Shown here piece by piece: positions 592 through 63,300 of a DNA stretch of 64,000 bases. Both the position numbers and the translations under genes were made by a program. The notes under the pieces were generated by a model. It had not been told where the DNA came from, made no database searches, and was given only the letters and a program-made list of their open reading frames with translations. The stretch is from Symbiodinium sp. CCMP2592 (taxonomy: Eukaryota > Sar > Dinophyceae > Suessiales > Symbiodiniaceae), in contig CAJNDT010005996.1 of assembly GCA_905221615.1 (NCBI GenBank), positions 293,501 through 357,500 of the forward strand, given 5' to 3'. Each line of letters opens with the position of its first letter. Position 1 is the first letter of the stretch.

Positions 592-674
592 TGGGTGGTT
601 GTCAGTACCCTAAACATTAGGTTCCGTATCATAACACGGACCCAGAAAGGGACCCTATTTTTGACAACCACCCA
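592..674. mobile_element. Foldback element, family B copy 1 (internally deleted)
   Basis: The left end reads TGGGTGGTTGTC and the right end is its reverse complement, GACAACCACCCA. Compared with the three other B copies the left arm lacks the stretch between GTTGTC and GTACCC, so the element is only 83 bp. Confidence 0.65.
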
Positions 675-3412
675 TCTACCAACTGACAGGGCCTCCCCTC
701 CGATGCCGGAGATCGGCCATTTCCTGTCCGTGGGGATTCGCAATTTTGGAGATTTAGGTTCTGGGATCTACAGGGATCAGGGCTTGTACTGTCTGGTTGT
801 TGGTAAGCTGGTCCCGAAAATGAGCTTGCAGAAACCTCTTCGAGGCAATATGGGTGCAGCCAAGCACATTCGCAAATCACATCTCTCCAGCAACAGCCAT
901 GAGGAACGTGATAACTGAAACTTCCAGTCATGTTCGATCGCAACAAGTCTGCAACAGGTGTCGAACAATTTTCCGACAAGCTTGTTAAATGCGTATAAGC
1001 GATGGTGCGGGAAGGAACAATCTCACCGAACAAACCAAAATCGAAGGCCTCCCATTTCCCGAACTCCTGTTTAAGGCATCTGCATGTCACATGCCCTTCA
1101 CTCCTCCTCGAGCTGCGCCAGTGCAGTCCGGATCTGCGCATTCAAGCCAGCGAGGTCGGCGGCATAGTCCTTACAATTATACTGTACCATGTTGTAAACA
1201 ATCATCATGTAGGAACAGGGTTTCGGGATCTGGAATATTGCATCGAAAGGGTCTCAAATAAATGAGAATAGTGTACGAGTGTCTCCTGGTTTTTGTCGTT
1301 ACACCTCGCGATCCAGATTGTCAACTCAGCAATTGCCTGCCGGAAAAAATATCCGGCTGGCTGATGATAATGTGGTCCCTGACGGATCCAAAATTACAAC
1401 CACGGGAAGCGCCACGCCATACACAGAAGTCCACAGCAATGCCTCTCTACGACCTACGCGCCCGACTGCATGGAAGGACCGATTGCATGGGTCCTCGTCG
1501 TCCGCTTGTTCCAGCATGAGGTCCTCCTCATCGCTAAGATCGCAACGGTCCTGGACACTTTCGGCCTCTGGGGTCTATCATGCCAGATCCGACCACACAA
1601 TAAGCAAAGCCTGTTCGGATCCGTGGGTAAGGCCCGTTGGGCTTGCCTTATTGATACAAAAAGGTGCCTGCACAAGCCTAGTGATACAACACTGTACAGG
1701 ACTGAACTGAACGAGGCAAGCTGCGGCACTTCAGCATGTCTATGACGTGTACCTTTGGCTGCACTCAAGCGAGCTTCGGCCAGAGTCGGTTTCTCTTCGT
1801 AGAGGCTCAACAGTCTGAACCGGAAAGTATGAACCGATCCCGGAGCCCACGGTCTTCTGAGAAATGCTTTTAAGCTGACTGCAAACCCCGCAACAATCAA
1901 TACCCCGTATACGTATACATCTGTATATAACTTGATGATACATTATATAAGTAAACTGTTTTTATAACACAGACAGAGCTACTGCCGAGCATGTGTTTAG
2001 TAGCACTTGGTGGCAGCCAGTCCTCCGGCTTTCGTTCGGTGGCCCAAGCATTCTCGGCGACCAACTCGCGCCCTGAAGGGTGGTGGGGAGACAGCAGCAG
2101 TGCAGTACATAAAACTGTATGCCTAAACTCTATAGCCCTGAAGCCTGCCCCCGCCCAGCCCCGGCTGATCCTGAACCCTCCAAATCGAAATAGGGCATAT
2201 CGAAGTTTCAGCACGAACCCCACAGACACAGCAATGCCGACTAGCTAAACTTTTAAACACCTGCGATGCACCAGCCTCCTTGGACTCATTCTGAACAAGA
2301 GCATCTTGACTTGTCCCTCTTCTTCAAAACGAAGGCTCCATAAGCTCGACAACGCAAGACAAGAGCAGTGTCGCCAGTATTGCTGGAAAAATCAACATCC
2401 TTCTTATGCCCCAACAGTTCTGCAGCTACTGCTAGTGCACGCGCCTCACGATTCCAAAACTACCAGCATGTCGCCTACTACTCGGCTTGAAACACTAGGT
2501 TGATCTCTCAAATCGAAGAGCAATCATAAAACCTCTTAATCCCTAAACCTTATAGTCTCTCACTAATTACATTTCCATACATATGATATCTGTATATATA
2601 CATATAACATATTCTACGAAAAAAGAACAATATAGGCATCCAGAATCTCCAAGAACCAAACTCACTATTTTGCATGCTGGGGCTCTTGCGGAGCTCTCCA
2701 CGCAGCCTGGCGCAGTCAGCTTCTGTGGCTGCAGCCTGGCGGTCTTCCGCGGTTTTCAGAGGCCTCGTAGGAGGAGGCAAACGGGTTTCTAACGAGGTAC
2801 AGAGCAATGATCTGTAGGTGTTTCTGAGGCTCTAGGTTATTAAACAGTTGATGGGATGCTATGAACTTTCGCTTACCGTCAAACCATTACGTACCAGTCT
2901 TGTAGGTGTTGATGGTAGTACCAGGGGCTGCGATGCTTTCCAAGGACTCGGGGAAGTACTGGAAGGTGCTTGGGTGCACTCAGGTGAACACTTAGCACTG
3001 CAAAGTGGGTTTGGGATGCCTGTGGTGTGAGGGTGCGAAGGAGTGTGTGACTGTGGATGTCGACTAATCAATCGGATCTGGACCGTTTTCTGGCTTTGGG
3101 TTCTGAAGCTTCAGAGATGCAACTCGCACAATTTGCAAGTCGGTCTCCTGTCCTCAGCCTTTCGATCGGTCGTGCCGAAGCCTATCGTTACCAACACGCA
3201 GCAACATGTCTGCATGATTGCATGGTTTTCTAAGATGAGACCGTCATACCAGGTTACCATGCAGAGCTAACTGAAAGCAGACATTCCTTGTAAATACCCT
3301 CCGCCTCCTGCGCAAGCTGGGGCGAAACGCCTGCTTCGCTGTCAAGGCATGCAAGAGGTGGTATGCGAACAGAACCTGAACTTCGACTTCTACTGCTGGT
3401 GGACAATTTTAC
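675..3412. other. No gene seen
   Basis: Several overlapping open frames of 60-170 codons occur on both strands. None has a recognisable motif, a consistent composition or a partner frame, so they are treated as chance. No strong repeat is seen. Confidence 0.45.
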
Positions 3413-3503
3413 CCCAAGGCCCCATAGTAGTTCCTTTTTTGGGGTTCATATTTCAGACTCCTATAAGGTAATCCCAACAAGGAACTACTTTGGGGCCTAT
3501 GGG
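3413..3503. mobile_element. Foldback element, family C copy 1
   Basis: Left arm CCCAAGGCCCCATAGTAGTT and right arm AACTACTTTGGGGCCTATGG are near-perfect reverse complements about 30 nt long. A second copy lies at 35,041-35,134. Confidence 0.7.
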
Positions 3504-5646: not shown

Positions 5647-5689
<43 letters not shown>

Positions 5690-9202: not shown

Positions 9203-9306
9203 TGGGTGGTTGTCAAAATTATGGTCCCTTTTTGAGTACCCTAAATATTTAGTGCCGTATTATAATAGGGACCCCAAACAGGGACCCTAATATTGACAAC
9301 CACCCA
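9203..9306. mobile_element. Foldback element, family B copy 2
   Basis: 104 bp, TGGGTGGTTGTCAAAATTA at the left and its reverse complement at the right. The internal core is GTACCCTAAATATTTAGTGC. Confidence 0.8.
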
Positions 9307-9415: not shown

Positions 9416-9516
9416 CAGTTGATGATATGAACCCTGCCTTGCCCATACTGAGGAAACTTCCATAATTTCCATCGTCCAGGGTCATGAAGGTAATGCAGGA
9501 TGTATATCATCAACCG
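9416..9516. mobile_element. Foldback element, family G copy 1
   Basis: Left end CAGTTGATGATATGAACCCT and right end AATGCAGGATGTATATCATC plus AACCG are reverse complements. It matches copies at 24,764 and 31,038. Confidence 0.75.
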
Positions 9517-11192: not shown

Positions 11193-11307
11193 GGTAGGCT
11201 AGTAGTAGGTAGTGGTAGTGGTAGTGGTAGTGGTAGTAGTTGAAGTAGCGGCAGTAGTAGTAGTTGTAGTAGTAGCAGCAGTAGTAGCGGTGGTCGTCGT
11301 GATCCTG

Positions 11308-11374
<67 letters not shown>

Positions 11375-11525
11375 TGGTGGTGGTAGTGGTAGTGGTAGTG
11401 GTAGTGGTAGTGGTAGTGGTAGTGGTAGTGGTAGTGGTAGTAGTAGTAGTTGTAGTAGTAGTAGTAGTACTACTACTACTACTAGTTGTAGTCGTGGTAG
11501 TAGTCGTAGTACTACTACTACTACT

Positions 11526-11581
<56 letters not shown>

Positions 11582-11718
11582 TACTACTACTACTACTACT
11601 ACTACTGCTACTACTACTACTACTGCTACTGCCACTGCCACTACCACTACCACTACTACTCCTACTACTACTACTACCACCACTACTACTACTACTACTA
11701 CTACTGCTACTACTACTA

Positions 11719-11750
<32 letters not shown>

Positions 11751-11757
11751 ACTATTA
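11193..11757. repeat. Large triplet array that switches strand: AGT/GGT then ACT/GCT
   Basis: 11,193-11,467 is AGT/GGT units. At 11,468 the units become ACT, return briefly to GT-type units at 11,485-11,509, and from 11,510 to about 11,757 are ACT with ACC and GCT variants. AGT and ACT are reverse complements, so the two halves can form one hairpin with arms of about 250 bp. Frames of over 200 codons made of Val, Leu, Ser or Thr are repeat translations. Confidence 0.9.
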
Positions 11758-13254
11758 CTACGAGCAGCAGTAGCAGCCCGAGCCAGAAGCCAACCGGTGA
11801 CTACTAGCGCTAGCACCAGCCGTGGCAGCAGAGCAGCAGTAGTCGTCATTGTCGCACTCGCCGCCGTCGTAGCAGTTGACGCAATAATGAGTTCGAGAGT
11901 AAATCGTTAAGAAGCACGAACAACGAAATCAAAGGCTTGCACATAGAGCTGCAAATCGTGCTATCAACTCACGCTGAGTGGTTCCGCACAAGCTGGCATC
12001 CAACTGATCAGTGAAACAGGCGCAATATGGCAGGGCCAGTGCGCACCTAGGGAGACGATACCATTGTCAAGTGATCTGCTCTCAGCAACCGTTTGGCATG
12101 TCCATTCGGTATCTGATCTGCGACGGGAGTGGGAGAGACACCGAAGGCTCTAGTAGTTACATGCGCTCTTACATCCCAGCATGTTAAGTCATCAAAGGTT
12201 AGAGATTCGGCCGTATAGGACCCTGGCAACCACAATCAGTTTCATGAATGGGAGAAGCTCAGTCAGCACAGACGTATGCCGTCGGGCCGTCGGGTGGTAT
12301 GTAGCACGCATGCTTAGCTTACACGATGTTGACTGACCTGGTAGGCACTCCTCTAGCTGAGCCAACGGATTTTGCTTGCAGATGATGTCACTTGAAGCTA
12401 CTCCTCTGTCCAAGCCGTTGCTCTCACAAATGCCAGCCTTCGCGGAGGACAAACACTTCATTCAGCATGACAAGTACAGCACTACATGCCGCTCGCCTGT
12501 GCAAAAAAGGCGCAAAGATGCACCTCGATGAAAAAACACACAAGGTTTCAACTTGAATGTACCTACAAAATACTTATGGTTCACCCGAGCCCGTGTGCAA
12601 GAGAGTACAGGTGCCGGGAGTGTGTCAACAAGCAGGTCCAACACAGTACCTCGGAAGTCAACTCACACACCAGACACGGAACGAGACAAAAAGCACAGTC
12701 CGATGCAACACTGGCATCCACTAAAACTCTAAACCGTAAACCCAACAAGGTTACGTGGTGGCTGAGCCGACGGCCATGCGACATGAAGGATGCAAACTTG
12801 CTGTGAAATTGACAGGAAGATAGGACGCTGCCCCGAAACCCACCTTGATTCCTCAATCCTACGCCTGAACCCTCGCTACACCGGAAACCCGAAAGCCATC
12901 GAAAGACCTTGGGCAGAGGCGGCCTCCACCGGTCCCAACCTCCCGGCTGGAAAAGCGGCTTGGTCTAGCCTCCCGGAGCGATATTATGGGCTTTGGTATC
13001 TTAGGGGCTTTAGCGGATATGGGTAGAGGGTTTAAGGTCTTGGGGTTTATGTGGTTTAGCATTTACGGTTATGGTCTATAGGGTTTAATTTAAGGTTCAA
13101 GAGCTTTAGATGCATATTCTGGCTTTGAGTTTTAGGCACCAGATTTCCCCTCCTTTGCTTTGGTTAAGGATTCGGAGTTTCAGGTCCAGGGTTTAGCGGA
13201 GTAGAGGGGGAGACTGCAGCTTGATTCCACACTTCGTAGATCCAAGTGCCAATA
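11758..13254. other. No gene seen
   Basis: Unassigned sequence. From 13,010 degenerate TTTAGGG-like words appear. No open frame shows protein-family likeness. Confidence 0.45.
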
Positions 13255-13356
13255 TGGGTAGTTGTCAAAATTAGGGCCCCTTTTTGGGTACCCTAAATAT
13301 TCGGTGCCGTATGATATTAGGGATCCGAAAAGGGACCAACATTTTGCCAGCCACCT
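13255..13356. mobile_element. Foldback element, family B copy 3
   Basis: TGGGTAGTTGTCAAAATTAG at the left. The right end (ATTTTGCCAGCCACC) is more diverged than in copies 2 and 4. The core GTACCCTAAATATTCGGTGC is retained. Confidence 0.7.
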
Positions 13357-13867: not shown

Positions 13868-13979
13868 TAATGCAGGAACCTGATCAAGAAACCCTGGCCC
13901 TATAACCCCTAACATAGGAGGTTTTGTATATGAAACCATAAAAAAAGGGCCAAGGTTTCTTGATCAGGTTCCTACATTA
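13868..13979. mobile_element. Foldback element, family H
   Basis: The two arms, AGGAACCTGATCAAGAAACC at the left and GGTTTCTTGATCAGGTTCCT at the right, are exact reverse complements over this stretch and extend outward and inward with few mismatches. The ends (ATAATGCAGGA / TCCTACATTAC) resemble the TAATGCAGGA end of family G. Confidence 0.8.
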
Positions 13980-14036
13980 CTATAGTACCCTTATATAGAT
14001 CCCTTCCAGACCCCTTTAAAGGAACCCCAACAAAGG

Positions 14037-14065
14037 ACCCAGGGTTTCTTAATCAGGTTCCTACA
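14037..14065. mobile_element. Orphan third arm of family H
   Basis: TTTCTTAATCAGGTTCCTAC repeats the right arm of the H element 60-90 bp upstream, without a partner. It ends exactly where the family A element begins at 14,066. Confidence 0.65.
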
Positions 14066-14169
14066 TGGGGGTTTCCGAAAATAGGGGACCCGAATATAGC
14101 ACCCTAGATAGTAGGATCCTTATTACAAGGACCCCAGAATAAGGAGCCCTTAATTTTCGGAAACTCCCA
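14066..14169. mobile_element. Foldback element, family A copy 1
   Basis: TGGGGGTTTCCGAAAATAGG at the left and AATTTTCGGAAACTCCCA at the right. Core ACCCTAGATAGTAGGATCC. Confidence 0.8.
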
Positions 14170-14343: not shown

Positions 14344-14432
14344 CAAGGGGTCCAAGTAGTAGTATAGGATAAACTGTTGGGGCCCCAATACCTATTTAAG
14401 TAGCTACTATATTGGTACTCGGACCCTTTGGG
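14344..14432. mobile_element. Foldback element, family D-prime copy 1
   Basis: Left arm CAAGGGGTCCAAGTAGTAG, right arm GGTACTCGGACCCTTTGGG. Near twin of 18,868-18,957. Confidence 0.7.
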
Positions 14433-14480: not shown

Positions 14481-14591
14481 TACTTGGAGGATCATGATAC
14501 CTAGTAAGTAAGGGTTATAGGTACCTTATTTGGGGTTATAAGTAATTAAACGGATCACAACTTTAGTTACCTTACTGTGATCCTTTAAGTA
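14481..14591. mobile_element. Foldback element, family E copy 5
   Basis: TACTTGGAGGATCATGATAC at the left and GTGATCCTTTAAGTA at the right. The inside carries GGGGTTATAAGTAATTA and AGTTACCTTA as in the other E copies. Confidence 0.65.
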
Positions 14592-16363: not shown

Positions 16364-16449
16364 CAGGGGCCTTAATAATTAGTATACGGGGTATACTATA
16401 CTATAGTAAGGAGCCTCAAAATGGTCTTGGTAATTATTTGGGCCCCTAT
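16364..16449. mobile_element. Foldback element, family F copy 2
   Basis: CAGGGGCCTTAATAATTA at the left and TAATTATTTGGGCCCCTA at the right, around GTATACTATACTATAGTAAGG. Confidence 0.65.
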
Positions 16450-18247: not shown

Positions 18248-18354
18248 AGGGGCCTAGATAATTACTGGTACCAATACTATTTTGGGGGTTCCCTATTATA
18301 GCTATAGTTATAGTATAACGGGCCCTAAAACCCTAGCTATATTGTAGTGCCCTT
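18248..18354. mobile_element. Foldback element, family F copy 3 (diverged)
   Basis: AGGGGCCTAGATAATTA at the left. Internal TATTTTGGGGGTTCCCTATT and TAGTATAACGGGCCCTAAAA match the F core. The right end is worn. Confidence 0.5.
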
Positions 18355-18867: not shown

Positions 18868-18957
18868 CCCAAAGGGTCCAAGTAGTAGTCTAGGATAAAC
18901 TTTTGGTGCCCAGATACCTATTCAGCAGCTACGATATTGGTACTTGGACCCTTTGGG
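18868..18957. mobile_element. Foldback element, family D-prime copy 2
   Basis: CCCAAAGGGTCCAAGTAGTA at the left and TACTTGGACCCTTTGGG at the right, 90 bp. Confidence 0.8.
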
Positions 18958-19687: not shown

Positions 19688-19796
19688 CCTGTAGTCTCCT
19701 TTGTAGTTCCTTGTTTTGGGGAACCAAATCCATATTAGAGGATCCTACCCATAAAACTGTTTAACAAAAGAAGGGAACTACAATGGAGACTACAGG
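19688..19796. mobile_element. Foldback element, family I
   Basis: CCTGTAGTCTCCTTTGTAGT at the left against ACTACAATGGAGACTACAGG at the right, one mismatch over 20 bp. The only full copy in the window. Confidence 0.8.
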
Positions 19797-21542: not shown

Positions 21543-21650
21543 CCCAAAGGGTCCAAGTACCCAATAATCATGTACTCTCCCAAATATTAACCTACATAAC
21601 TACTATCCTAAACCCAAGTACCTGATTATTGGGTCCTTTGGACCCTTGGG
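21543..21650. mobile_element. Foldback element, family D-prime copy 3
   Basis: CCCAAAGGGTCCAAGTACCC at the left, with ACCCAATAATCA facing TGATTATTGGGT and a GGACCCTTGGG end on the right. Confidence 0.75.
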
Positions 21651-21798
21651 GTATGGTGCTCCAGAACCCAGGTGATGCTTCGACGGTTTGCCCTACTTCA
21701 AGAAATTCGGAGCAGCTTGCTCTGCTTCGAGCTGTTGGGAGCCGGTCGGGTTTTGGTTTCAGGTTTTAAGGGTGTCCGGCTTCAGCCTTTTAGGCTGC

Positions 21799-21920
21799 TA
21801 CTTGGAGGGGCAGGGGGCTTAGTATAAGTAGATTATAAGTAGGGTTATAAGTACCCTAGATGGAGTTACCCCAACTATAACCCTACTTATAACCTACTTA
21901 CTAAGTCCTCTGCCCAAGTA
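21799..21920. mobile_element. Foldback element, family E copy 4
   Basis: TACTTGGAGGGGCAGGGGGC / CTCTGCCCAAGTA ends with the internal TTATAAGTAGGGTTATAAG and its complement. Confidence 0.7.
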
Positions 21921-22459: not shown

Positions 22460-23785
22460 TCAGGGCGATGTCCAGTAGGTTAACGGCAAGCGGTGGAAAT
22501 CGAACTTTGCACACAAGGCCGTCGCTATCTCGATAAGCTCGGCATGCTCATAGATGAAAGTCTGCACTTTCTTCTTGAAAGGTACGTATTTCAGGATTTC
22601 AACTATAGGACCCCCATTGGGATTTGCAAATGCCACAGCCTTACCATCCTGAATCCATTTCACATAGTATGTCTTGGTGGCGAACCCTCTGACTCCCCAT
22701 TTTTGCGGGGCAAAATAAAAGAGAGGTCGGTTTCGGGTCACAAATAAGTAGAAGCCTCCCGCGCCCGCAACTTTGTATTGTGGCAAATCTTCATTCAGAA
22801 CAACACCGTTCTGTGCTTTGGCCCAGTTGTACCAGGGCTGGATGGTATAGTCCTCGTTGTGTTGCCGGAAGTCGCGCCGGGCGCTGGCAGTGCAAAACGA
22901 CACCTGCCGGATCATGGACATGTGAAAAGGATCTGAATAGTCCAGGACCTGGATATCCTTGAACTCATTCACCAACTTGTTGTACACGGCCGTCATGGTG
23001 GGATTCACAAGGTTGCCGCTAGAGTCGTAGGGGTTAAACCGCAGCTGATACTCTTGCGTCTCAGTGAACTGGCCATTCGTAGGTACGACGCGGATCTGAT
23101 TGAACTTCACCTTCCAGCGAACACGCTCCACCAACTCAGCTAGGGAGGCTCCGGTGATGAGCCTGGGAATGTTCGGAAAGTAACTCGCCACTTCAGGCTT
23201 CACCTGAGAGGCTGGTGCTACAGTGGCGCATGTTGTGCCTGGATGGACAAACTCCATGTGTCCCGAGTCGATGTTGGGCAGCATGAAGGAAGACTGGCCG
23301 TTGCCGCCACCGGTGAGCCAGCCGTCGTCGTTGCTTTTGCAGAGGTATTGGTTACCTCGATCTTGGAGCCGATTGAAGTCAAACTTGGTTTGGTGAGTCA
23401 CACTGTTCAAGTTCGATGTAAGCACCTCCGGGTGTTGCCGTGACATGCTCATCCCAAAGAAGACCAGGCCCCAGGGTGCTCCAGGGATGACGTGGTGCTT
23501 GGAGCAGGGCTGGAAATCTGCATTGCACGTGTTGCTCTGGTTTGGGTTCCAGTTGGAACACAAGCAGGCACTCGGATCCTCCACAGGATATGCATACTCC
23601 GCATTGTTGTCTCCGTCTGCGGGGTTACAGTCACATGGTCCTTGTGCATCAGCACTAGTCTCACGGATCTGCATGAACGCCACATCCTCTTTGCTGCATG
23701 CCTCTGGAGGCAGCGCACGTCCAACACCGGATGCAGCTGCGATCACGAGGAAGAGAAATGCCATCCTTCGCAGGCAGCGATCCAT
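22460..23785 (-). CDS. Secreted cysteine-containing protein of unknown function, 441 residues
   Basis: Uninterrupted frame from ATG (23,785) to TGA (22,460), with an in-frame TAG directly before the ATG, so the frame is complete. Residues 8-24 (MAFLFLVIAAASGVGRA) follow a basic start and form a typical signal peptide; cleavage is likely near Ala24. Residues 30-94 hold seven cysteines (30, 51, 53, 74, 76, 87, 94), including CDC and CLC pairs, in an Asn/Asp/Pro-rich segment. The rest (about 95-441) is mixed, with few cysteines and no second hydrophobic span, which suggests a soluble exported or luminal protein. I do not recognise the family. The bases just before the ATG read CTGTAG, so an AG that could accept a spliced leader touches the start codon. 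A family A foldback element begins 7 bp upstream. The lack of introns would fit a retrogene, but no relict leader is seen next to it. Confidence 0.75.
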   Translation of the reverse strand: MDRCLRRMAFLFLVIAAASGVGRALPPEACSKEDVAFMQIRETSADAQGPCDCNPADGDNNAEYAYPVEDPSACLCSNWNPNQSNTCNADFQPCSKHHVIPGAPWGLVFFGMSMSRQHPEVLTSNLNSVTHQTKFDFNRLQDRGNQYLCKSNDDGWLTGGGNGQSSFMLPNIDSGHMEFVHPGTTCATVAPASQVKPEVASYFPNIPRLITGASLAELVERVRWKVKFNQIRVVPTNGQFTETQEYQLRFNPYDSSGNLVNPTMTAVYNKLVNEFKDIQVLDYSDPFHMSMIRQVSFCTASARRDFRQHNEDYTIQPWYNWAKAQNGVVLNEDLPQYKVAGAGGFYLFVTRNRPLFYFAPQKWGVRGFATKTYYVKWIQDGKAVAFANPNGGPIVEILKYVPFKKKVQTFIYEHAELIEIATALCAKFDFHRLPLTYWTSP

Positions 23786-23792: not shown

Positions 23793-23894
23793 TGGGAGTT
23801 TCCGAGAATAGGGAACTCTAATCTAGTACCCTAAATAGTAGGATCCTTTTTGTAAGGACCCCAAATAAGGTACCCCTATTTTCGGAAACTCCCA
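23793..23894. mobile_element. Foldback element, family A copy 2, abutting a gene start
   Basis: TGGGAGTTTCCGAGAATAGG and CCTATTTTCGGAAACTCCCA ends, core ACCCTAAATAGTAGGATCC. It occupies the position expected for the 5' UTR or promoter of the minus-strand gene ending at 23,785. Confidence 0.85.
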
Positions 23895-24374: not shown

Positions 24375-24459
24375 CCAGAAAGTTGGAAAATGATTATCCT
24401 TACCCTTCTATGGTAAATTGTAGGGTATCCTACCATGAAACCATATTCCAACTTTCTGG
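24375..24459. mobile_element. Foldback element, family J
   Basis: CCAGAAAGTTGGAA faces TTCCAACTTTCTGG exactly, with an inner CTATGGTA/TACCATG pair. 85 bp, one copy. Confidence 0.7.
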
Positions 24460-24763: not shown

Positions 24764-24875
24764 CGGCTGATGATAAAAATCCTGCAATACCGCATTACCC
24801 ATAAGGAAAACATACCATAATTCCCCTAGTTAGTTTCGGGTCCCTCAGGTCATGCAGGATTTATATCATTAACCG
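24764..24875. mobile_element. Foldback element, family G copy 2
   Basis: CGGCTGATGATAAAAATCCT at the left and ATGCAGGATTTATATCATTA plus ACCG at the right. Confidence 0.75.
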
Positions 24876-24963: not shown

Positions 24964-25064
24964 GTAGGAGCGTTAACTATACTCTATACTATTTTGGGTG
25001 GTTCCTTATTATATGTATAGTATAATGGGCCCCAAGACCATATTCGAATTACTTAGGCCCCTAT
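24964..25064. mobile_element. Foldback element, family F copy 4
   Basis: TATTTTGGGTGGTTCCTTAT, TAGTATAATGGGCCCCAAGA and the right end TTACTTAGGCCCCTATA match the F consensus. The left end is diverged. Confidence 0.6.
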
Positions 25065-26417: not shown

Positions 26418-26515
26418 CCCTAAGGGTCCATGTACCCAAGTAGTAGATACTTTGGCCCCTTTGTAGGTACTTTGGGGCAAAAGTATATACTATTTGGGCA
26501 CATGGACCCTTAGGG
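26418..26515. mobile_element. Foldback element, family D copy 1
   Basis: CCCTAAGGGTCCATGTACCC at the left and GGGCACATGGACCCTTAGGG at the right, 98 bp. Confidence 0.8.
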
Positions 26516-26665: not shown

Positions 26666-26790
26666 TACTTAAAGGATCATGGGACTTAGTAATTTGGGGT
26701 TATAAGTAAGGTAACTACAGTTATGATTACTTATAGCCCCAACTAAGGTACTTATAACCCTACTTACTAAGTCCCATGATCCTCCAAGTA
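26666..26790. mobile_element. Foldback element, family E copy 1
   Basis: TACTTAAAGGATCATGGGAC / GTCCCATGATCCTCCAAGTA ends, with GGGGTTATAAGTAAGGTAAC and its complement inside. Confidence 0.85.
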
Positions 26791-30743: not shown

Positions 30744-30927
30744 TGTAGGGGCCTTCATAAATTTTGAAGAGGTTTGGGGGTGCCGTATACGATAACTTTA
30801 ATAAGGAACCCACCCCCCCCAAAAAAAAAAAAAACAAATAGTATTGGTAGTTGTTTAGGCCCATTATACTATAACTACAATAAGGAACCCCCAAAAAAAA
30901 GTATGGGTAATTGTTTAGACCCCTATA
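30744..30927. mobile_element. Foldback element, family F copy 5 with two right halves
   Basis: One left end (GTAGGGGCCTTCATAAATTT) is followed by two successive F right halves. Each has ATAAGGAACC, a C/A homopolymer run, AGTATNGG and TTGTTTAGNCCC. The first carries long poly-C and poly-A runs. Confidence 0.65.
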
Positions 30928-31037: not shown

Positions 31038-31142
31038 TGTTGATGATATAATAGAAATCCTGCATTACCTTAAAGACCCTAAACTGTGAGAAATGTGTGA
31101 TATTCCTTATTATGGGTAATGCAGGATTTATATCATCAACCG
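31038..31142. mobile_element. Foldback element, family G copy 3
   Basis: GTTGATGATATAATAGAAAT at the left and AATGCAGGATTTATATCATC plus AACC at the right. An F element follows within 6 bp. Confidence 0.8.
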
Positions 31143-31147: not shown

Positions 31148-31224
31148 GTATTTTGGGGGTTCCTTGTTATAACTATAGTACAATGGGCCCCAAAACCCTA
31201 TTCAGCTTGTTAAGGCCCCTATAT
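31148..31224. mobile_element. Family F copy 6, left end missing
   Basis: TATTTTGGGGGTTCCTTGTT, AGTACAATGGGCCCCAAAAC and TTGTTAAGGCCCCTATATG match F. The left terminus is replaced by the G element. Confidence 0.6.
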
Positions 31225-32030: not shown

Positions 32031-32157
32031 TACTTAAAGGGTCATGGGACTTCGTAAACGGGGTTATAAGTAAGGTAACTACAGTTTTCTCACTCATAAC
32101 CGCCATTAGGGCACTTGTAACCCTACGTGCTTACTAAGTCCCATGATCCTCCAAGTA
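32031..32157. mobile_element. Foldback element, family E copy 2
   Basis: TACTTAAAGGGTCATGGGAC / GTCCCATGATCCTCCAAGTA ends and internal GGGGTTATAAGTAAGGTAAC. Confidence 0.85.
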
Positions 32158-35040: not shown

Positions 35041-35134
35041 TACCCACAGGCCCCAACGTAGTTCCTTTTTGGGATTACCTTATAGGATTCAACATATGAA
35101 CCCCAAAAAGGAACTACTTTGGGGCCTTAGGGTA
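35041..35134. mobile_element. Foldback element, family C copy 2
   Basis: CAGGCCCCAACGTAGTTCCT at the left and AGGAACTACTTTGGGGCCTT at the right, with outer TACCC/GGGTA. Confidence 0.8.
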
Positions 35135-35233: not shown

Positions 35234-35362
35234 TACTTAAAGGATCATTGGACTTAGTAATTGGGGTTATAAGTAAGGTAACTATAGTTATAATTAGTCA
35301 AAACCCCAGTTAAGTTAAGGTACTTGTAGCCCGACTTACTGGGTCCCATGATCCTCCAAGTA
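35234..35362. mobile_element. Foldback element, family E copy 3
   Basis: TACTTAAAGGATCATTGGAC / GTCCCATGATCCTCCAAGTA ends, internal GGGGTTATAAGTAAGGTAAC. Confidence 0.85.
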
Positions 35363-36184: not shown

Positions 36185-36315
36185 GCCCAAAGGGTCCAAG
36201 TAACAATATAGTAGCTACTGGATATTTCGGTCCCAAAGCATATACTACGCTATACTATGCTATACTATACTATGCTATACTATGATGCTGACTAGACTAC
36301 CTGGACCCCTCGGGC
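36185..36315. mobile_element. Foldback element, family D-prime copy 4, with TATAC insert
   Basis: GCCCAAAGGGTCCAAGTA at the left and CTGGACCCCTCGGGC at the right. The centre has expanded into CTATACTATG repeats (36,238-36,285). Confidence 0.6.
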
Positions 36316-37305: not shown

Positions 37306-37641
37306 ATAAGGTATCGGGCCATCGGTGGAACGTTGACGCCTCGGTTTGCATGCATGCGTTTCTGGCGCTGTGGAAGCCGATTCCGAAGAGCCCCAGATGT
37401 TCGTTCACGCGTACTGGGGTCTAGTGTTTACCTGGACCCCAAAAAACCTACCCTTCTAGGGGTTCCCTGTTATGATGCCCTTATACAAGCCCCTAAAAAA
37501 GTGGGTTATTCGGGGTTAAGGTATGGCATAGGGTGTTCAGGGCCTTGATCGTTGGAAAAAGGTCTTGGTGTATGTTGTAGCTAGTTACAATGAGGAACCC
37601 CTACATAGTATACAGAACTAGTAATTCTTAAGGCTTCTACA
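37306..37641. other. No gene seen
   Basis: Contains family F-like words near 37,570-37,620 (GAGGAACCCC, TAGTATACA) that are too worn to delimit. Confidence 0.35.
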
Positions 37642-37744
37642 TGGGTGGTTGTCGAAATTCTGGTCCCTTTTTGGGTACCCTAAACATTAGGTGCCGTATT
37701 ACAATACGGACCCAAAAAGGGATCTTAATTTTGACAACCACCCT
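37642..37744. mobile_element. Foldback element, family B copy 4
   Basis: TGGGTGGTTGTCGAAATTC / AATTTTGACAACCACCC ends, core GTACCCTAAACATTAGGTGC. A telomere-like array begins at its right end. Confidence 0.85.
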
Positions 37745-37850
37745 CAAGACCCTGAGCCCTAAACCCTAAGCCCTAAACCCTAAAACCATAAACCCTAAAC
37801 CCTGAGCCCTAAACCCTAAACCCTGAGCCCTAAACCCCAAGCCCTAATTC
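37745..37850. repeat. CCCTAAA telomere-like array
   Basis: About 14 units of CCCTAAA, CCCTAAG or CCCTGAG, C-rich on the plus strand, directly after a family B element. Confidence 0.85.
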
Positions 37851-37952
37851 TTAAGGCTTCCATATTGGGATTGCAGGCTGCAGGCCTTCTTGGCCTCGAG
37901 AGCCCATCCTTGGATTGGTCTTTTCTCGCACATACGAAGCCGGGATGCGGCC

Positions 37953-38031
37953 GTTTAGGGTTTAGGGTTTGTAGGGTTTAGGGTTTAGGGTATACCATTC
38001 TAGGAAGACCCCAAACCCTAAACCCTGAACC
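37953..38031. repeat. Inverted pair of telomere-like arrays
   Basis: TTTAGGG units (37,953-37,990) are followed after about 20 bp by CCCTAAA units (38,010-38,031), so the strand sense flips. Confidence 0.75.
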
Positions 38032-41440: not shown

Positions 41441-42482
41441 GGGCATTGAATAGTTATAACTGAACTAGGGCTTGTGAAGTGTATTGTAGTATATGTCTGT
41501 GGCTACTATAGTCCCATGTTACCTTGAGCGCAGATCGAGAAGCTATACAACGCAACAACTCTGACATTCGATAAGCTCCGTCTGAGAACCAGCGGCTTTC
41601 TTACTTAATTTCAGGGTAGCTCACCTTTGGTTTAGAGGTGCAGCTCAGTCGGCAGTGTCACCTGAAGAACTAAATCTTAATGCTTCCGTGTCTTGGGCGC
41701 CTAGTCGAGGGTCACACCAGTGCCGAACCTTCGGAAACCAACACGGAACTGGCCCAACACCCAAAAGCCCGCCTAACCCTGAACTACCCTAGCCGTAGCC
41801 TTCTGCGATACCCCCTAGGTCGTTAAATCCTACCAACTCCGTGCTCGAGATCTGAGCAAAATCGCCAAGAAGTAGCACAGCGTTCCTTGAAGGGATCCTT
41901 TTTTGGGCGCCATTTTAAGAGCTACTATACGGATTGTTCTGATGATATCAATCAGAAGAGGCTTCCATGGAGAGGTCCTTTTAATTTCAGGTTGCTATAC
42001 CGGCTCAAAATCAGGGTTCTTTGGTATAGGGGCCTTGATAGTTAGAATGGGGTTTCGGGGTATATTATGGTATCGTAAAGCAAGAGGCCCAAAGGACTCA
42101 CGTTGATATGTATTCCGGCTTCTATGCTGAACCCTGAACGCTAAAAGACCACAAGCCCCAATTCCGAATACAGGGGTCTCAATAGTTGCCAATTCTGATT
42201 ACCTAGGATTCCTCATCGGTATACTTGTTGGCATTCCCCAACACCTTCTGCTTGAAACCAGCTAATTATAGCAAAGCCCCTATATTCAGTGTCCTGCCTT
42301 TTCGGGTTCCGGCACGGGCTCTGTGGCCAACAATGGCTCCGCAGCTGCATTCCGCCACGGTTGAGACCAAAGATCCACGCAGAGCTCCTGGAAGAGGTTG
42401 GGGGGTGCAGGCCTGCAAAATTAGAATAGGCTTCCCTTTAAAGGGCTCTTACCTATAAAGGATCTACAAGGGTACTATAAGA
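41441..42482. other. No gene; worn family F pieces
   Basis: TATAGGGGCCTTGATAGTTA at 42,026, ACAGGGGTCTCAATAGTTG at 42,173 and AATTATAGCAAAGCCCCTAT at 42,264 look like F ends, scattered and undelimitable. Confidence 0.4.
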
Positions 42483-42578
42483 TAGGGGCCTTGATAATTA
42501 GAATGGAGTTTTGGGGGCCCATTATATTTGAATGTAAAAACCCCCAAACTAGTATAAATAATCATCAAGGCCCCCATA
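42483..42578. mobile_element. Foldback element, family F copy 7
   Basis: TAGGGGCCTTGATAATTAGA at the left and AAATAATCATCAAGGCCCCC at the right. Confidence 0.8.
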
Positions 42579-45817: not shown

Positions 45818-45926
45818 CCCTAAGGGTCCATGTACCCAAATAGTATATACTTTGGCCCCAAAGTACCCACATAGGAACTACATTAAGGCCAAAGTATCCA
45901 CAATTTGGGTGCATGGACCCTTAGGG
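45818..45926. mobile_element. Foldback element, family D copy 2
   Basis: CCCTAAGGGTCCATGTACCC / GGGTGCATGGACCCTTAGGG ends. Confidence 0.85.
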
Positions 45927-47437: not shown

Positions 47438-47548
47438 TATAGGGGCCTCAATGATTGCTTTACAAACGGAACAGGGTTTTGGGGCCCATTGTACTGTAGT
47501 TATAATAAGGAACACCAAAAGAGTATAGTTAACTATTTAGTCCCTATA
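47438..47548. mobile_element. Foldback element, family F copy 8
   Basis: TATAGGGGCCTCAATGATTG / GTTAACTATTTAGTCCCTAT ends, core GGGTTTTGGGGCCCATTGTA. Confidence 0.75.
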
Positions 47549-49276: not shown

Positions 49277-49631
49277 GTAGTCTGGTCTTGAAGACAAAAA
49301 ACTGTTTCTCCCAATCTCTCTTTGACATGTCCTCAATATCTCGTGGTGTCACCGGAGGACTGAGGGGACCAGGTCCAGACTTGTTGTTGTTCGAGTTCAT
49401 ATTGTTCGAGTTTATGTTGCCATAGTTCTCTTAAAGAGAACTATGGCAACATAAACTCGAACAATATGAACTCGAACAACAACAAGTCTCTTTGGCAGCT
49501 ATTTTGGCCACATTCGATTTGGCGAGGTGATACATGTCGGTCTGCTTGAGATTGTTGAGCACTCTGCGTCTCTTGGACACCCTCTCACAGTGTGTGAGTA
49601 CCTTGCTGTCAAAAGGTACATCTCCGTCCAT
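49277..49631 (-). CDS. Two exons with WEK/KTR domain, copy 1
   Basis: From an ATG at 49,631 a frame reads a basic segment (VSKRRRVLNNLKQTDMYHLA) up to about 49,495. After a frame change, a second segment begins near 49,488: NYGNINSNNMNSNNNKSG, then PPVTPRDIEDMSKRDWEKQF, ending FKTRLR before GTGAGT at 49,276. The blocks KR-rich, PPVTPR, RxWEK and KTR occur in the same order in the copy at 48,408-48,668. The Asn/Ser-rich piece is encoded by the right-hand arm of the perfect palindrome at 49,377-49,489 as read on the minus strand. A TAA lies in frame just before it and is preceded by GTTCTCTTTAAG, which would serve as a 3' splice site. Boundaries are approximate; function unknown. Confidence 0.45.
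49377..49489. repeat. Perfect inverted repeat, two 56-bp arms, one-base centre
   Basis: Arms 49,377-49,432 and 49,434-49,489 are exact reverse complements over all 56 bp around the single base at 49,433 (CTCTTAAAGAG at the centre). The flanking bases do not pair. The structure spans the junction of an apparent minus-strand intron end and the Asn/Ser-rich exon. Confidence 0.95.
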
Positions 49632-54699: not shown

Positions 54700-55013
54700 A
54701 TCTTGTAAGCGCCCAAAACCTTCAACTCCTAGACCCAAACAAACCCAAAACCCTACGATACCTAGTAAACTCTTGCACCTAAACTCCTAGACCCAAACAA
54801 ACCCAAAACCCTACAATACCTAGTAAACTCTTGCACCTAAACTCCTAGTCCCAAACAAACCCAAAACCCTACGATACCTAGTAAACTCTTGCACCTAAAC
54901 CCCCAGACCCAAACCAAACAAACCCAAAACCTTACCATACCTAATAAACTCTTACACCTAATAAACAAACCCAAAACCCTACAATACCTGCCTAATACAC
55001 TCTTACACCTAGA
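54700..55013. repeat. 58-bp tandem array, about five copies
   Basis: CCCTACRATACCTAGTAAAC recurs at 54,751, 54,809 and 54,867 (58-bp spacing), then with variants at 54,930 and 54,977. Each unit also has CTCTTGCACCTAAACTCCTA and CCCAAACAAACCCAAAA. It borders the minus-strand exon ending at 54,648 on one side and a family A element on the other. Confidence 0.85.
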
Positions 55014-55125
55014 TGGGAGTTTCCGAAAATTAGGGGTAGCTTATTTAGGGGTCCGGGTCCTTATAATAAGGATACTGTTATATTAGGGTACTATACAGGG
55101 ATTCCCTAATTTTCGGAAACTCCCA
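55014..55125. mobile_element. Foldback element, family A copy 3
   Basis: TGGGAGTTTCCGAAAATTAG / CTAATTTTCGGAAACTCCCA ends. It starts exactly where the 58-bp array stops. Core GTCCTTATAATAAGGAT is inverted relative to copies 1 and 2. Confidence 0.85.
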
Positions 55126-55429
55126 ATTACCAAACGAGGGGCCTAGACTCTAAACCCTTACTAAACCTAACACCCCCACCCCCCAACCCCGGCCTTCGCA
55201 GGCCGGGCACAGCGGCTGCCGCCGCACCAGCAGCGCCGATGTGATGTTGATGATGGTGATGATGATGATGGTGAAAGTAATATATCATGAAGGACAATGA
55301 TGATGATGATGATGATTAAATATAACTAGATATTATATGATGACTGAAAGCCCTTGAGCCTGAAAATCTAAGGTCTCAATTAAGTAAACCCCCCAACTTA
55401 AACCCTGGAGTCTTGCTTTAGGGTTTGGG
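55126..55429. repeat. C-rich sequence and GAT trinucleotide repeat
   Basis: GATGAT/GGTGAT units at 55,235-55,320. The rest is degenerate telomere-like words. Confidence 0.6.
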
Positions 55430-56211
55430 GTTTTAGATTTGGGCTCTCGGGTTCAGGTTTTATGTATTAAAGCCCCGATCTTAAACCCTAATGGTCTTAA
55501 ATCCCTGGGGGGTCTTAGCTTTAGGGTTGGAGGCTTTAGGGTATGAGGGTTTTAGGTATTCAAGCCCCCCAACTTAAACCCTAATGGTCTTAAAACCCTG
55601 GAGGTCTTGCTTTAGGGTTAGAAGCTTTAGGGTATTAGGGTTTTAGGTATTAAACCAACCCTAATGGTCTTAAAACCCTGGCGGTTTGGCTGTAGGGTTA
55701 GGGGCTTTAGGGTTTTAGGTATTAAATCCCCCAACTTAAACCCGAACGGTCTTGAAACCCTGAGGGTCTGGCTGTAGGGTTAGGGGCTTTAGGGTTTTAG
55801 GTACTAAAGCCCCCAACTTAAACCGCAATGGTCTTAAAACCCTGGGGGTCTGGCTGTAGGGTTAGGGCTTTAGGGACCGAACCGACACAGAAAGCCCAGG
55901 AACAGGGATGACCATCAGGAAGAAGGTACAGCATGTCATGGCATGGACGGCTGCGGTTCTCACATTAGCAAAAAGGGGTTTAGGCTTTAGTACATAAGTT
56001 TTAGGGTTTGGGGTTTTAGATTTGGGCTTTTATGGGTTAGGGTTTTATGTATTATAGCCCCCAACTTAAACCCTAATGGTCTTAAAACCCTGGGGGTCTG
56101 GCTGTAGGGTTCGGGGCTTTAGGGTTTTAGGTATTAAAGCCCCCAACTTAAACCCTAATGGACTTAAAAACCTTTTGGTTTGGCCTTTAGGGTTTGGGGT
56201 TTTAAGCTTAG
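55430..56211. repeat. About 82-bp tandem array, seven copies, with one interruption
   Basis: ATGGTCTTAAAACCCTGGGG and GGGTTTTAGGTATTAAAGCC recur. ATGGTCTTA starts at 55,491, 55,584, 55,664, about 55,744, 55,828, 56,076 and (as ATGGACTTA) 56,158. An unrelated stretch at 55,877-55,965 interrupts. Each unit has AAACCCT on one side and TAGGGTT on the other, so each monomer can fold back. Confidence 0.85.
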
Positions 56212-56530: not shown

Positions 56531-56641
56531 ACCCTACGGGTCCATATACCCAAATAGTAGATACTTCGGCCTTGATGTAGTTCCTATATAGGTACTCTGG
56601 GGCTAAAGTCTGTATCATGTGGGTACATGGACCCTTAGGGT
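56531..56641. mobile_element. Foldback element, family D copy 3
   Basis: ACCCTACGGGTCCATATACC / GGGTACATGGACCCTTAGGG ends. Confidence 0.8.
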
Positions 56642-57682: not shown

Positions 57683-57782
57683 TAGGGGCCTCAATAATTT
57701 GAATAGGGTTTGGGGGTCCATTATGCTATAAGCATAAGAAGGAACCCCACAAAAATAGTATACATAATTATTGATGCCCCTA
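57683..57782. mobile_element. Foldback element, family F copy 9
   Basis: TAGGGGCCTCAATAATTTGA / ATAATTATTGATGCCCCTA ends, core GGGTTTGGGGGTCCATTATG. One of the best-preserved F copies. Confidence 0.85.
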
Positions 57783-59280: not shown

Positions 59281-59307
59281 AAATATATATATATATGCTT
59301 CTATACA

Positions 59308-59343
<36 letters not shown>

Positions 59344-59697: not shown

Positions 59698-59815
59698 ATA
59701 TATATATATATGTATTATAGAGACATAGATCTGTGTACATACGTATATACAAATACATAAACATAGTTATATATATGTATATGTATATATTTATATATAT
59801 GTGTACACATATAGG

Positions 59816-59850
<35 letters not shown>

Positions 59851-59880
59851 CATATATATATATATAGATAGATAGATAGT
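59698..59880. repeat. TA/GATA microsatellite cluster
   Basis: TA runs at 59,698-59,711, 59,768-59,800 and 59,820-59,866, then GATA units to about 59,878. Confidence 0.85.
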
Positions 59881-60255: not shown

Positions 60256-60298
60256 AGGCAAAAACGAATTAGAGTCAGACTCGAGTTCGTTTTTGCCT
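60256..60298. repeat. Strong hairpin: 13-bp plus 5-bp nested inverted repeat
   Basis: AGGCAAAAACGAA (60,256-60,268) and TTCGTTTTTGCCT (60,286-60,298) are exact reverse complements. Inside them GAGTC-A-GACTC (60,272-60,282) is a second exact stem. The two stems are separated by matched 3-nt internal loops. It ends 10 bp before the spliced-leader-like sequence. Confidence 0.9.
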
Positions 60299-60308
60299 GA
60301 GGGCAGAT

Positions 60309-60330
60309 ACCGTGGCCATTTTGGCTCCAG
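60309..60330 (+). ncRNA. Dinoflagellate spliced-leader-like sequence with 5' splice site
   Basis: From 60,309 the bases read ACCGTGGCCATTTTGGCTCC then AG. Against the known 22-nt dinoflagellate leader this matches at 20 positions; the differences are G for A at position 6 and C for A at position 20. The ATTTTGG core (the Sm-like site in this leader) is intact. The next bases are GTACATG, so a donor GT sits exactly where an SL RNA gene would have its splice site. This could be a diverged SL RNA gene, a pseudogene, or a relict leader from a retroposed mRNA. The retained GT argues for an SL RNA-type origin. No coding frame follows immediately. Confidence 0.6.
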
Positions 60331-62619
60331 GTACATGCTGTGTCCAGATAAGAACGTGGTTAAGAACCTCAGCCTCCCCTATCTACTCAGCCAGCCAAAC
60401 CAGAGGTAAATGGACAATTAGAACCTTAGGGTAGGTTACTCTCGCGTGATGGGGTTCTATGCAGGGATTTCACCGTACAGTAACCCTCATGGTAGCCTTC
60501 ATAGCAACCCCGACCGTAGCCCTTGGGGGTTCTTGAGAATGGAATCTGCACGACGCCAGGGCATTCAGTTGGACGCTGATACCGGCAGCGCATGTTGCAG
60601 CAACTGCGTCTCCTCCCCAGTCAGCAAAACTCTTAGTCTGTGCGGTTTCATGCATGCAGCCGGCGGCTGTCGCGTTGCTATGATGCTTATGTGCACATCG
60701 GTGTGCTCTTGTGCTTCTTTGATTGTGTGGTTTGGCTCCTGTGTCACCTGAGCTTGTGTATATTTGACGGAACTCCTTTGAGGCCGCTGCCATCGGGGGT
60801 CGCGTTACATGTCTTCCACATGCTGTTGACGCTGCGACCACATGGCAGATATCTCCATTGAGAACCGTCCAACTGCAACCCATGTAATGATCGTACCACT
60901 AGTCATCTTATCTCCGAAAACCCATGGAAGGGACATGAAACAAGCCATACCGTTGTACCCTAAAGATCTACAAGGCCCAGCATTGTTCAACTGTCTCGTT
61001 TGAGGTCCATGGTCTCCAGATACCGTTCAAAACTATAGCCCGTCCGCACTTCCTCCGAGAGGCGGGGGCCGCGGCATCAGCAGAAATTTTATCAGAAGAC
61101 CCCACCATTCACCACATGTAGAAGATACACCCAAGTCAAGACCCCCTTTCAACACCCTAAGCCCCGTAAATCTCAAAGCTGCATGCGAGAAGCCCCAGCT
61201 TCTGCTCCGCCCAGGTGCCTGTCAGAAGGCCTTAGTTCGTTTAAAGAGATGCCGGCACGGCCCGATACCCCTTAATTATTCCTGAATTCTTGTAGAGCCT
61301 CCACAGTGTCTCCTGGCTTCGTATACAACTTTGTGAGGTTCCGGGTTTAAGGGCGCGAATGACTTGTTGATTAAGTGACACCTTAAATTGCCTTGTATCA
61401 TGGAAAACCTCTATCGATCAAAGAAGAGTTCGCGCATCCAGCCAAGAAGTGGCTTCAGGGTTTGGATTTGGGACATAGGGGACACGGCTTAGGGCCGATG
61501 AGATCTAGGGAGCTAAGCCCTATAAACACTAGTCGGGAAACTGAGTGCTGGATGGGAAGACAATGTGAATCCATAGTTCGTTCGCCATCGGAATCGAATC
61601 TCTGAAGCGTCGTGAAACACTCAGTCAAAACCCGACGGCTCTGTAGTAAGATGCTGAAACACCAGGAGGAAGATGTTCTGGAAACAGACCGACCGAAGAA
61701 CAACTACCCGCCCGAAACATGCAACTTTGGGCAAACTCGTTAAACTCACAGACCAGGATCGCTGACCACAGTCAAGAGTGTACATGGCATATGCTCACCG
61801 AGACAAGAACGACCTACCCACCAGCTACCCTAAACCAAGCCCGGCCCCTAACTTCCTAGATCAGTTCTTTTTCGGAACATGAATACACTTTGATAGCCAT
61901 TTGTATCCTCATGCATATTAACCCACAGCTCGTAGACGCAGAAACCCCGGCGCACTGAGCTTTCAGGCTCGATGGCATCTCCGTGCCATCGGCTGAAGGC
62001 ACAGCCAAACTCTCGGCGAGGAGTCGAAAGGCAGTGACACTCTCTGCCAAGCTCTTACCTTGCGGCGTTTCCGGGCGTTGACGGCCCGTGAAGCACTTCG
62101 TGGGTTTGTTATGCTGCTTTTGATGTTTCAGAACTGAGGCCTTACATGAGTTCAAGGGTTGTAGCTTTAGAAGCAAGGAGCCTAAACGATTTCAGCTTTT
62201 AGGGGCCAAAGCCTGTAGTAGATTTGGAAGGCTAAGCTTGCGCGCTACCTGAGTCATGTGTTGGAAGGTTATGGGCAGGTCGAAGCTTTGCTGAAGGGTT
62301 GCGTACTTGTGATATCAAGCAGGCCGCAGAACGTCTTGGTTGCACACATCTGTCATTGGATGTCCATTTCGGTCTCGTCTCGGACGATCAGTCTTTGGGG
62401 CGAGGCCTCCAACTAAAGCCTTAAACCCTTTAAAGTTCAAAGCCCAAAGCCTACACCCTAACAGCCTGAAGCCCCAAAACCCCACAACCCTACGACCCCA
62501 GACCCTGAGTTATGGGGTTAGATCCAAGCCTCGATGTAAGAGTCAGGGTTTTGGGATTATTCGGCTCAGGGCTTAAGGCTCGGGGTTTGGGGATTAGGGT
62601 TTGCCAGCAACGGTCATGT
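60331..62619. other. No gene supported
   Basis: 60,380-60,400 (CTCCCCTATCTACTCAG) resembles a pyrimidine tract with an AG acceptor 55-70 bp after the leader-like site. Frames at 60,446-60,883 overlap on both strands. The remainder is unassigned. Confidence 0.4.
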
Positions 62620-62707
62620 GAGGGGCCTTACTTATATAATTATACTATAATAATAAGTCTAATAAGGAACCCCCAAAAAACCCTACTCTAATTATCGAGG
62701 CCCCTAC
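62620..62707. mobile_element. Foldback element, family F copy 10
   Basis: GAGGGGCCTTACTTATATAA / CTAATTATCGAGGCCCCTAC ends, with AATAAGGAACCCCCAAAAAA inside. Confidence 0.7.
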
Positions 62708-63197
62708 ATTACGAGAAAACTTTAGTCACAACTCGAAATTACTAAAAGCTGCCCCGTGTCCTGCTGTCGAGTGGCATTCCTCACGAAGCGCGGTCTGGCA
62801 CGACTCAAGCTCAGCGCGCTTCTCCGGACTCACCTGGCCAATAATGAATTGCGCCCGTTGCGCTTCACTTGGGATTTCTTGTTCAAGTTGCTGGCAGCTT
62901 GGGCCAGTAGCAGTCAGGATCGCGGATAGCGGAACCATTCACACTAGCTCTCTCCGCTCAGGGCCCCACCCTACTTCTGCCCCCCATCTGCCTCCCCACC
63001 CCCACAGACACACACCCTTGCACTAGACGCTGTAGTAGACTCTGGTCCTTCCCGAAAACCCTAACACCAACCCACCCCAAGGCCCGAGAATCCCCAGGAG
63101 CACACTCGCCCAAACAATAAGGGTTCCTTTAAAAGGGTTCCTTAAAGGGATCTATAATTAAGGGATCTATAAGGGTTCCATAAAGGGTTTAGGGTTT
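62708..63197. other. No gene seen
   Basis: Unassigned sequence. From 63,120 short CCTTAAAGGGATCTATAAGG-type words that also surround other foldback elements. Confidence 0.4.
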
Positions 63198-63300
63198 AGG
63201 GAGTTTCCGAAGATAAGGGGTACCTTGTTTTGGGGTCCTCACGATAAGGATTCTACTATTTAGGGTACTCTGTTGGATCCCCTATTTTCGGAAACTCCCA
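63198..63300. mobile_element. Foldback element, family A copy 4
   Basis: AGGGAGTTTCCGAAGATAAG / CCTATTTTCGGAAACTCCCA ends, with GGATTCTACTATTTAGGGTA inside (core in inverted orientation). A telomere-like unit runs directly into its left end. Confidence 0.8.

Follow-up and report, generated by a model that had tools for sequence, protein, structure and literature searches.

A 64,000-nucleotide window of the Symbiodinium sp. CCMP2592 genome (contig CAJNDT010005996.1, positions 293,501 to 357,500; G000:C5134:293501-357500 among 5,383 contigs totaling 1,098,105,373 bases) is strewn with short foldback elements of several families. We read these as miniature inverted-repeat transposable elements (MITEs), mobilized in trans by several transposase types, later decaying, and gathered in noncoding DNA, a reading to which we assign a probability of about 0.92. 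As MITEs of several kinds, they add members to a known type of element and do not form a single novel repeat class. The lengths of their target-site duplications (2, 3, 4, and 8 bp) differ by family, which argues for several transposases over a single hairpin class, and in some families an uninterrupted relative of the insertion site is preserved.

Hairpins in the window and in a wider sample

An ungapped scan of the window returned 34 foldbacks scoring at least 14, versus none in each of five first-order shuffles. Simple or telomere-like repeats (AT, TAG, or TTTAGGG) make up 10 or 11 of these 34 and are not elements; they are what speaks for an explanation by chance or simple-sequence artifact. 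Against that explanation stand the 189 filtered foldbacks (31 of them in the window) in a wider sample, consisting of the window and 20 regions of 10 kb (264 kb in total), where second-order nulls gave 3, 5, and 8 (approximate values, as the simplicity filter was run on the letters before shuffling and no telomere filter was used), along with the family-wise alignments and genome counts given below. An artifact has, in our estimation, a negligible chance of being the answer; the hairpin repeats are real and abundant. Foldback spans in the 264-kb sample peak at 90 to 120 bp, and the 143 foldbacks spanning 55 to 200 bp fall into 40 single-linkage clusters, 17 of which have at least two members (20, 16, 13, 13, 12, and 11 in the largest) and some of which represent simple or tandem sequence, not elements.

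Profile search of the window recovered 39 nonredundant copies, 31 of which are full length. They belong to 7 of the 10 profiled families: J with 12, F with 7, A and B with 5 each, B2 with 4, and C and D with 3 each. The 4,208 bp that these copies cover jointly with a solo palindrome and families I and G amount to 6.6% of the window. The original prediction, drawn from the letters of the window alone, had put the number of elements at about 40 and their share at roughly 6%, and both estimates hold, as does the statement that copies within a family align end to end. Its count of at least ten families hangs on the joining rule: we count nine families plus the solo palindrome in the window, and D-like and F-like copies (e.g., 19688-19796 and 18868-18957) could be split off as extra families. 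That no mobilizing gene is visible holds for the frames scanned against Pfam, since none of these 10 (of the window's 83 stop-to-stop frames of at least 110 amino acids [aa]) has a match at E 0.01. GC content lies between 0.45 and 0.50 across the 4-kb stretches of the window. The supposed dinoflagellate origin is borne out by 143 genome-wide matches to the peridinin-chlorophyll protein family, which mark the host as a peridinin dinoflagellate; long tandem arrays of peridinin-chlorophyll protein genes occur on G000:C1035, C2391, and C722.

Target-site duplications and empty sites

Comparing the letters outside the ends of copies found by profile, irrespective of hairpin form, and complete to within a few bases yields duplications of characteristic length. 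They measure 2 bp in family A (16 of 26 copies, TA in 13), family C (12 of 21: TA in 8, AA in 3, and TT in 1), and family D (TA in 8 of 14); 3 bp, mostly A/T, in family F (10 of 20, of which only 4 are TTA or TAA); 4 bp, often ATAT, in families B (6 of 18) and B2 (10 of 17); and 8 bp in family H (5 of 7, with a 6-bp core in 7 of 7). Family L has CTAG in 5 of 8 copies. No correction for the many offsets, lengths, and pairs compared has been applied to the P values for these duplications or to those for the consensus similarities below. Letters of the inverted ends cannot account for the duplications of 3, 4, and 8 bp or for the AA pairs of family C, whose duplication is taken as genuine on account of these pairs and of its empty sites.

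After filtering of TTTAGGG-type low complexity, 7 of 120 joined-flank queries matched an uninterrupted relative. Three of these are clean nested insertions whose relative carries one copy of the duplication: a B2 element in locus L008 (ATAT) and C elements in loci L012 and L017 (TA in each). A fourth clean empty site lies in the window, where a full family B element (GGGAGTTTCC ends; 14067..14168, + strand) splits the end of a partial family I copy (14023..14066) with the 4-bp duplication ACAT on both sides, while another family I copy (TAATGCAGGAACCTG ends; 13868..13979) is unsplit. Clean empty sites are confined to families B, B2, and C. The remaining four of the 7 are the L008 site again under family B, an H element in L017 (with the 8-bp duplication CTTATCAC on both sides, as read by eye, and a relative that aligns with gaps), an E element in L025, and a C element in the window, the last two with junctions that are not clean. 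A family E copy at L025:5818-5926 lies between 19-bp direct repeats, far longer than the duplications of the other families.

Proposed mobilization in trans and the search for transposases

Under our preferred reading, transposases acting in trans would cut and paste the short, nonautonomous elements via their inverted ends, with insertion at staggered cuts, and the inserted copies would then decay by ordinary mutation. Judged by duplication length, at least four kinds of transposase may be involved, the classes being 2 bp, mostly TA (families A, C, and D, perhaps L), 3 bp (F), 4 bp (B and B2), and 8 bp (H). The MITE likeness noted in the original prediction is thereby upheld, through family-specific duplications and clean empty sites. 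Its further suggestion of one distinct dinoflagellate hairpin-repeat class gives way, as duplications of different lengths indicate different transposases. Such a class, spreading by a hairpin-based process without a transposase, would fit the similar lengths across families, the interior pieces that some families share, and the folds of eight family consensus sequences (-36 to -76 kcal/mol, pairing in E and F being nearly complete); family-specific duplication lengths are instead what staggered cuts by different transposases are expected to leave, and we hold a single hairpin class to be extremely improbable.

A profile search of the whole genome, exon by exon, found at least 150 matches to DDE_1 (218 candidates, of which 150 were scored), often arranged in tandem, as well as 10 matches to DDE_3 and 5 to the hAT dimerization domain (PF05699). 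The arrays of DDE_1 transposase-like genes are regular (e.g., C5152:403713-429246, with genes ~6.3 kb apart), and the frames are mostly open.

Several results weigh against mobilization by several transposases. The fraction of copies with an exact duplication ranges from one third in B to less than three quarters in H, a shortfall that we attribute to the age of the copies (median divergence, 0.08 in C to 0.23 in A and B), and no firm duplication was seen in families E, G, I, and J. For families A and D, and likewise L, the self-complementary TA or CTAG could belong to the inverted end, because these motifs read identically on both strands. Only 7 of the 120 joined-flank queries had an uninterrupted relative. 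No transposase gene was tied to the ends of any family, the search having covered transposase domains. For the 3-bp family F, the exon-by-exon search returned 0 matches genome-wide to DDE_Tnp_4 (PF13359, PIF/Harbinger), and a PIF/Harbinger partner for this family was accordingly rejected.

Copy number and age

Searching 356,864 bases with the ten family profiles gave 237 nonredundant copies, partial ones included. Genome-wide counts were made for families B2, C, and F, the abundance of the other families being drawn from the profile search of the sample. The 23-base end of family C has 9,664 exact matches in the genome (4,890 plus 4,774) and the 21-base end of family F has 2,464 (1,207 plus 1,257), where a single element may yield two matches; reversed controls gave 0 in both cases. 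Family B2 produced 1,841 first-look candidates, 40 of which were scored. These families are thus not ones that occur only once or twice. The 100 family C places listed include nine pairs that face each other, at 101 bp in eight cases and at 103 bp in the ninth. The 20 sample regions hold 117 hairpins with spans of 55 to 200 bp in 200 kb, from which we roughly extrapolate several hundred thousand hairpins in the genome; with regional densities ranging from 0 to 1.4 per kb, and with the 20 regions lying on 14 contigs all picked for a B2 match, this figure is an order of magnitude only.

Family C lies closest to its consensus (median divergence, 0.08), followed by D (0.12), E, F, and H (~0.16 each), B2 (0.20), and A and B (0.23 each); the copy sets of B and B2 overlap in these estimates. 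Most copies are old, but a few are close, with best mutual identity reaching 1.00 in family D.

Arm symmetry, shared interiors, and possible end switching

Among copies with close interiors, differences between the arms are almost all one-sided in families B (416 one-sided versus 0 symmetric), B2 (563 versus 5), F (62 versus 0), and H (30 versus 1), and they are also predominantly one-sided in C (444 versus 87), D (60 versus 9), and E (95 versus 29), indicating that individual hairpins decay after insertion. Symmetric differences among these close copies exceed the independent expectation in C (87 versus 19.5), E (29 versus 9.5), and D (9 versus 2.1). Among distant copies, they exceed it in F (184 versus 80.9), D (115 versus 27.9), H (52 versus 11.4), and E (23 versus 4.8), show little excess in C (4 versus 1.9, from nine pairs), and fall below it in B (62 versus 309) and B2 (192 versus 243.7). 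When symmetric arm changes are set against 500 shuffles, the counts surpass all shuffles in E (20; mean, 7.8; maximum, 17) and F (22; mean, 10.2; maximum, 20), equal the highest shuffle in D (21; mean, 9.3), lie above the mean and within range in C, B2, and H, and are not above the mean in B and J. The symmetry comparison failed for A, where 6 of 30 copies could be used and were misregistered, and for L, where none of 8 could. The B and B2 alignments share cross-family copies, and the pairs of copies compared are in no family independent of one another. The source lineages of several families carry matched ends.

One way to read this symmetry is that the hairpins are kept by selection, for instance as small-RNA precursors or structural signals, which is compatible with a MITE origin. 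The shuffle results for E, F, and D and the symmetric excess among close copies of C, E, and D favor such a reading; families B and J at or below the shuffle mean, C, B2, and H inside the shuffle range, and the dominance of one-sided differences among close copies (in B, B2, F, and H, with a majority in C, D, and E) do not. We see only a slim chance that selection maintains the hairpins. Matched subfamily ends are expected from any source lineage.

The original prediction had also remarked that elements with different ends have similar lengths and interiors. This stands for some families: 13 of 45 consensus pairs resemble each other more closely than do first-order shuffles (which do not preserve the palindrome) at an uncorrected P of <0.05, where ~2 would be expected, and five pairs have z scores of >4, namely the sister families B and B2, C-E (score of 44 over ~52 bp, against a null maximum of 28), C-D, B-J, and D-J. 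It does not extend to the other 32 pairs, which are unremarkable. Two features are not fully accounted for by descent as MITEs: the interiors common to families with different ends, and the ends of C, D, and E that differ symmetrically even among close copies. Both would follow from a process of end switching, in which near-full palindromes copy a change in one arm to the opposite arm during replication or repair of an active source lineage, so that ends drift while remaining matched and one core gains new pairs of ends and moves between transposases. This would account for C and E sharing an interior under different ends and for copies of C, D, and E in which both ends are changed and the interior is little changed. 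We offer end switching as speculation and consider it unlikely.

Position relative to genes

Coding fraction was assigned with a codon model for which frames from kinesin loci supplied the 9,642 training codons. Element numbers fall from 132 in 204 kb with <10% coding sequence to 5 in 10 kb of intermediate regions and 6 in 50 kb with ≥30% coding sequence, and density is negatively correlated with coding fraction across 21 regions (Spearman, -0.69). The window itself, at 0.41 elements per kb, lies below 11 of the 14 other regions with <10% coding sequence. The elements are scarce in coding DNA and accumulate in noncoding DNA.

These placements bear on whether the elements are introners, i.e., transposons that create an element-sized intron upon landing in an exon. 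A reported introner of Symbiodinium microadriaticum (PMC9860276), 115 bp long by coordinates, has inverted ends and duplications of 4 bp, an anatomy matching that of families B and B2; dinoflagellate introners are credited to Roy et al. 2023 in a review (PMC11453091). Of the 237 copies, 159 were complete and had sufficient flanking sequence; we joined their flanks and asked for a coding-like frame across the junction. None of the 159 scored >2, a mark passed by 7.2% of random points (n = 2,901) and by 68% of points inside coding stretches (n = 1,071); 3 scored >0, versus 13.9% and 88%, respectively. The control points come from the 25 element-bearing loci, and the coding-stretch control is partly circular, as the same codon model defined the stretches. 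The top scorer of the three is a family B copy in the kinesin locus L038; its flanks, once joined, remain open, which counts in favor of an introner. Exons of L038 read by eye place two B copies and another hairpin inside putative introns, not flush with exons. Introners are, moreover, described as enriched in genes (PMC9860276), unlike the elements here. Given the lack of split-exon frames among the 159 copies and the placement of the L038 copies within putative introns, the elements are in the main not introners, and we judge it very unlikely that they are. Two kinesin gaps of intron size, 115 and 118 bp by their coordinates, were considered as element candidates and rejected, with no foldback evident by eye.

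Individual elements of the window

Positions derive from the profile search, except those of families I and G and the solo palindrome, which come from the foldback scan, clustering, and alignment and carry no strand. Four of the family A copies (CTTGGAGG ends) have TA on both sides (14483..14588, +, and the full copies at 26668..26788, 32033..32155, and 35236..35360, all -), and the fifth has one decayed end (21801..21914, +). Beyond the element nested in family I, family B is represented by full copies at 23794..23893 (+; 4-bp duplication AGTT), 55015..55124 (-; flanks AGAT/AATT, not exact), and 63199..63299 (-; no exact duplication) and by a weak, partial copy at 6..63 (+). Family B2 (GGGTGGTTGTC ends) has an internally shortened copy with an exact 4-bp duplication, ATCT (593..673, +), and full copies at 9204..9305 (+; flanks ATAT/ACAT), 13256..13355 (+), and 37643..37743 (+; no duplication seen, ACAT/TCAA).

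Family C (CGGTTGATGA ends) is full at 9417..9516 (+) and 24764..24875 (+; TA on both sides) and sits within J-like sequence, with an unclean junction, at 31038..31142 (-). Both full family D copies (CCCATAGGC ends; 3412..3503, +, and 35043..35132, -) have TA on both sides, and a D-like element with CCTGTAGTCTCC ends occupies 19688..19796 (-). Family F (CCCTAAGGGTCC ends) has full copies at 45818..45926 (-) and 56532..56640 (+), each with the 3-bp duplication TTA, and at 26418..26515 (+), with no duplication seen (AGG/CAA); F-like elements lie at 18868..18957 (-; CCCAAAGGGTCC ends), 21543..21651 (-), 36186..36314 (-), and, in part, 14355..14432 (+).

Copies of family J (AGGGGCCT ends) are located at 16365..16447, 30747..30862, 37540..37637, 42028..42122, 42484..42574, 47441..47544, and 57684..57781 (all +, the last of them full) and at 24966..25062 (-), with partial copies at 18248..18335 and 62622..62705 (both -); two further partial copies form the outer part (30858..30924, +) and the opposite side (31149..31220, -) of a nested composite. 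The core of family G (CCAGAAAGTTGG) lies at 24375..24459. The solo palindrome at 49377..49489, counted in the 6.6%, is perfect over 113 bp (56-bp arms and a 1-base loop) and joined no cluster in the 264-kb sample; either an element or a fold-back of the assembly may explain it.

Other features of the window include a minus-strand frame at 22460-23785 (441 codons, ATG start, and no Pfam match at E 0.01), with the family B element at 23794..23893 situated 8 bp upstream of its first codon. At 11200-11772, a (TAG)n array abuts a (TAC)n array, forming inverted arms of ~275 bp at 80%. At 54724-56204, tandem arrays with periods of 47 to 63 and 82 to 162 flank a family B element, and degenerate telomere-like TTTAGGG/CCCTAAA arrays occur in noncoding DNA at 37749-37991, at 63466-63737, and at several sample loci.

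Relation to known elements and significance

Family H resembles hAT-type MITEs in its inverted ends and its 8-bp duplication, a length typical of hAT elements; its ends presumably differ from the usual hAT ends, and none of the 5 hAT-dimerization matches in the genome is linked to it. Families A, C, and D resemble Stowaway-type MITEs (Tc1/mariner) in size (~90 to 125 bp), inverted ends, and mostly TA duplications, but C also uses AA and TT, and the ends of all three are, we assume, different from those of Stowaway; neither the 10 DDE_3 matches nor the at least 150 DDE_1 matches are linked to these ends. Family F is like Tourist-type MITEs (PIF/Harbinger) in its 3-bp duplication, inverted ends, and length of ~109 bp, and unlike them in that TTA and TAA account for just 4 of its 10 exact duplications and in residing in a genome without a DDE_Tnp_4 match. 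Families B and B2 (~100 to 115 bp) can be likened to the introners of S. microadriaticum in their 4-bp duplications, inverted ends, and length; no element here was found flush with exons, either among the 159 copies tested or at L038.

According to a review (PMC12595863), Stowaway duplications are TA and Tourist duplications are TWA, MITE duplications in general are 2 to 9 bp and A/T rich, MITEs constitute 0.06 to 10% of plant genomes, and plant MITEs favor genic regions. On those figures, both the anatomy of the elements and their 6.6% share of the window fall within the known range for MITEs; in contrast to plant MITEs as described there, the elements here thin out where coding sequence is dense. 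The introner elements of Amoebophrya, as described in PMC7789003, have inverted repeats of 8 to 20 nucleotides, direct repeats of 3 to 5 nucleotides, and a hairpin fold, all of which they share in kind with the present elements; they are defined as introns, and the elements here are not. The literature searched holds no paper on these families, with Repbase and most subscription journals outside the search.

Judging by their 6.6% share of the window and the rough genome-wide extrapolation, these hairpin transposons of several transposase types are a major component of the noncoding DNA of this dinoflagellate. End switching, if true, would be a route by which a tiny transposon changes its transposase. 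Because introners are thought to arise from such nonautonomous elements, and because the elements described here lie mostly outside exons, the step from MITE to introner may be testable within a single genome.

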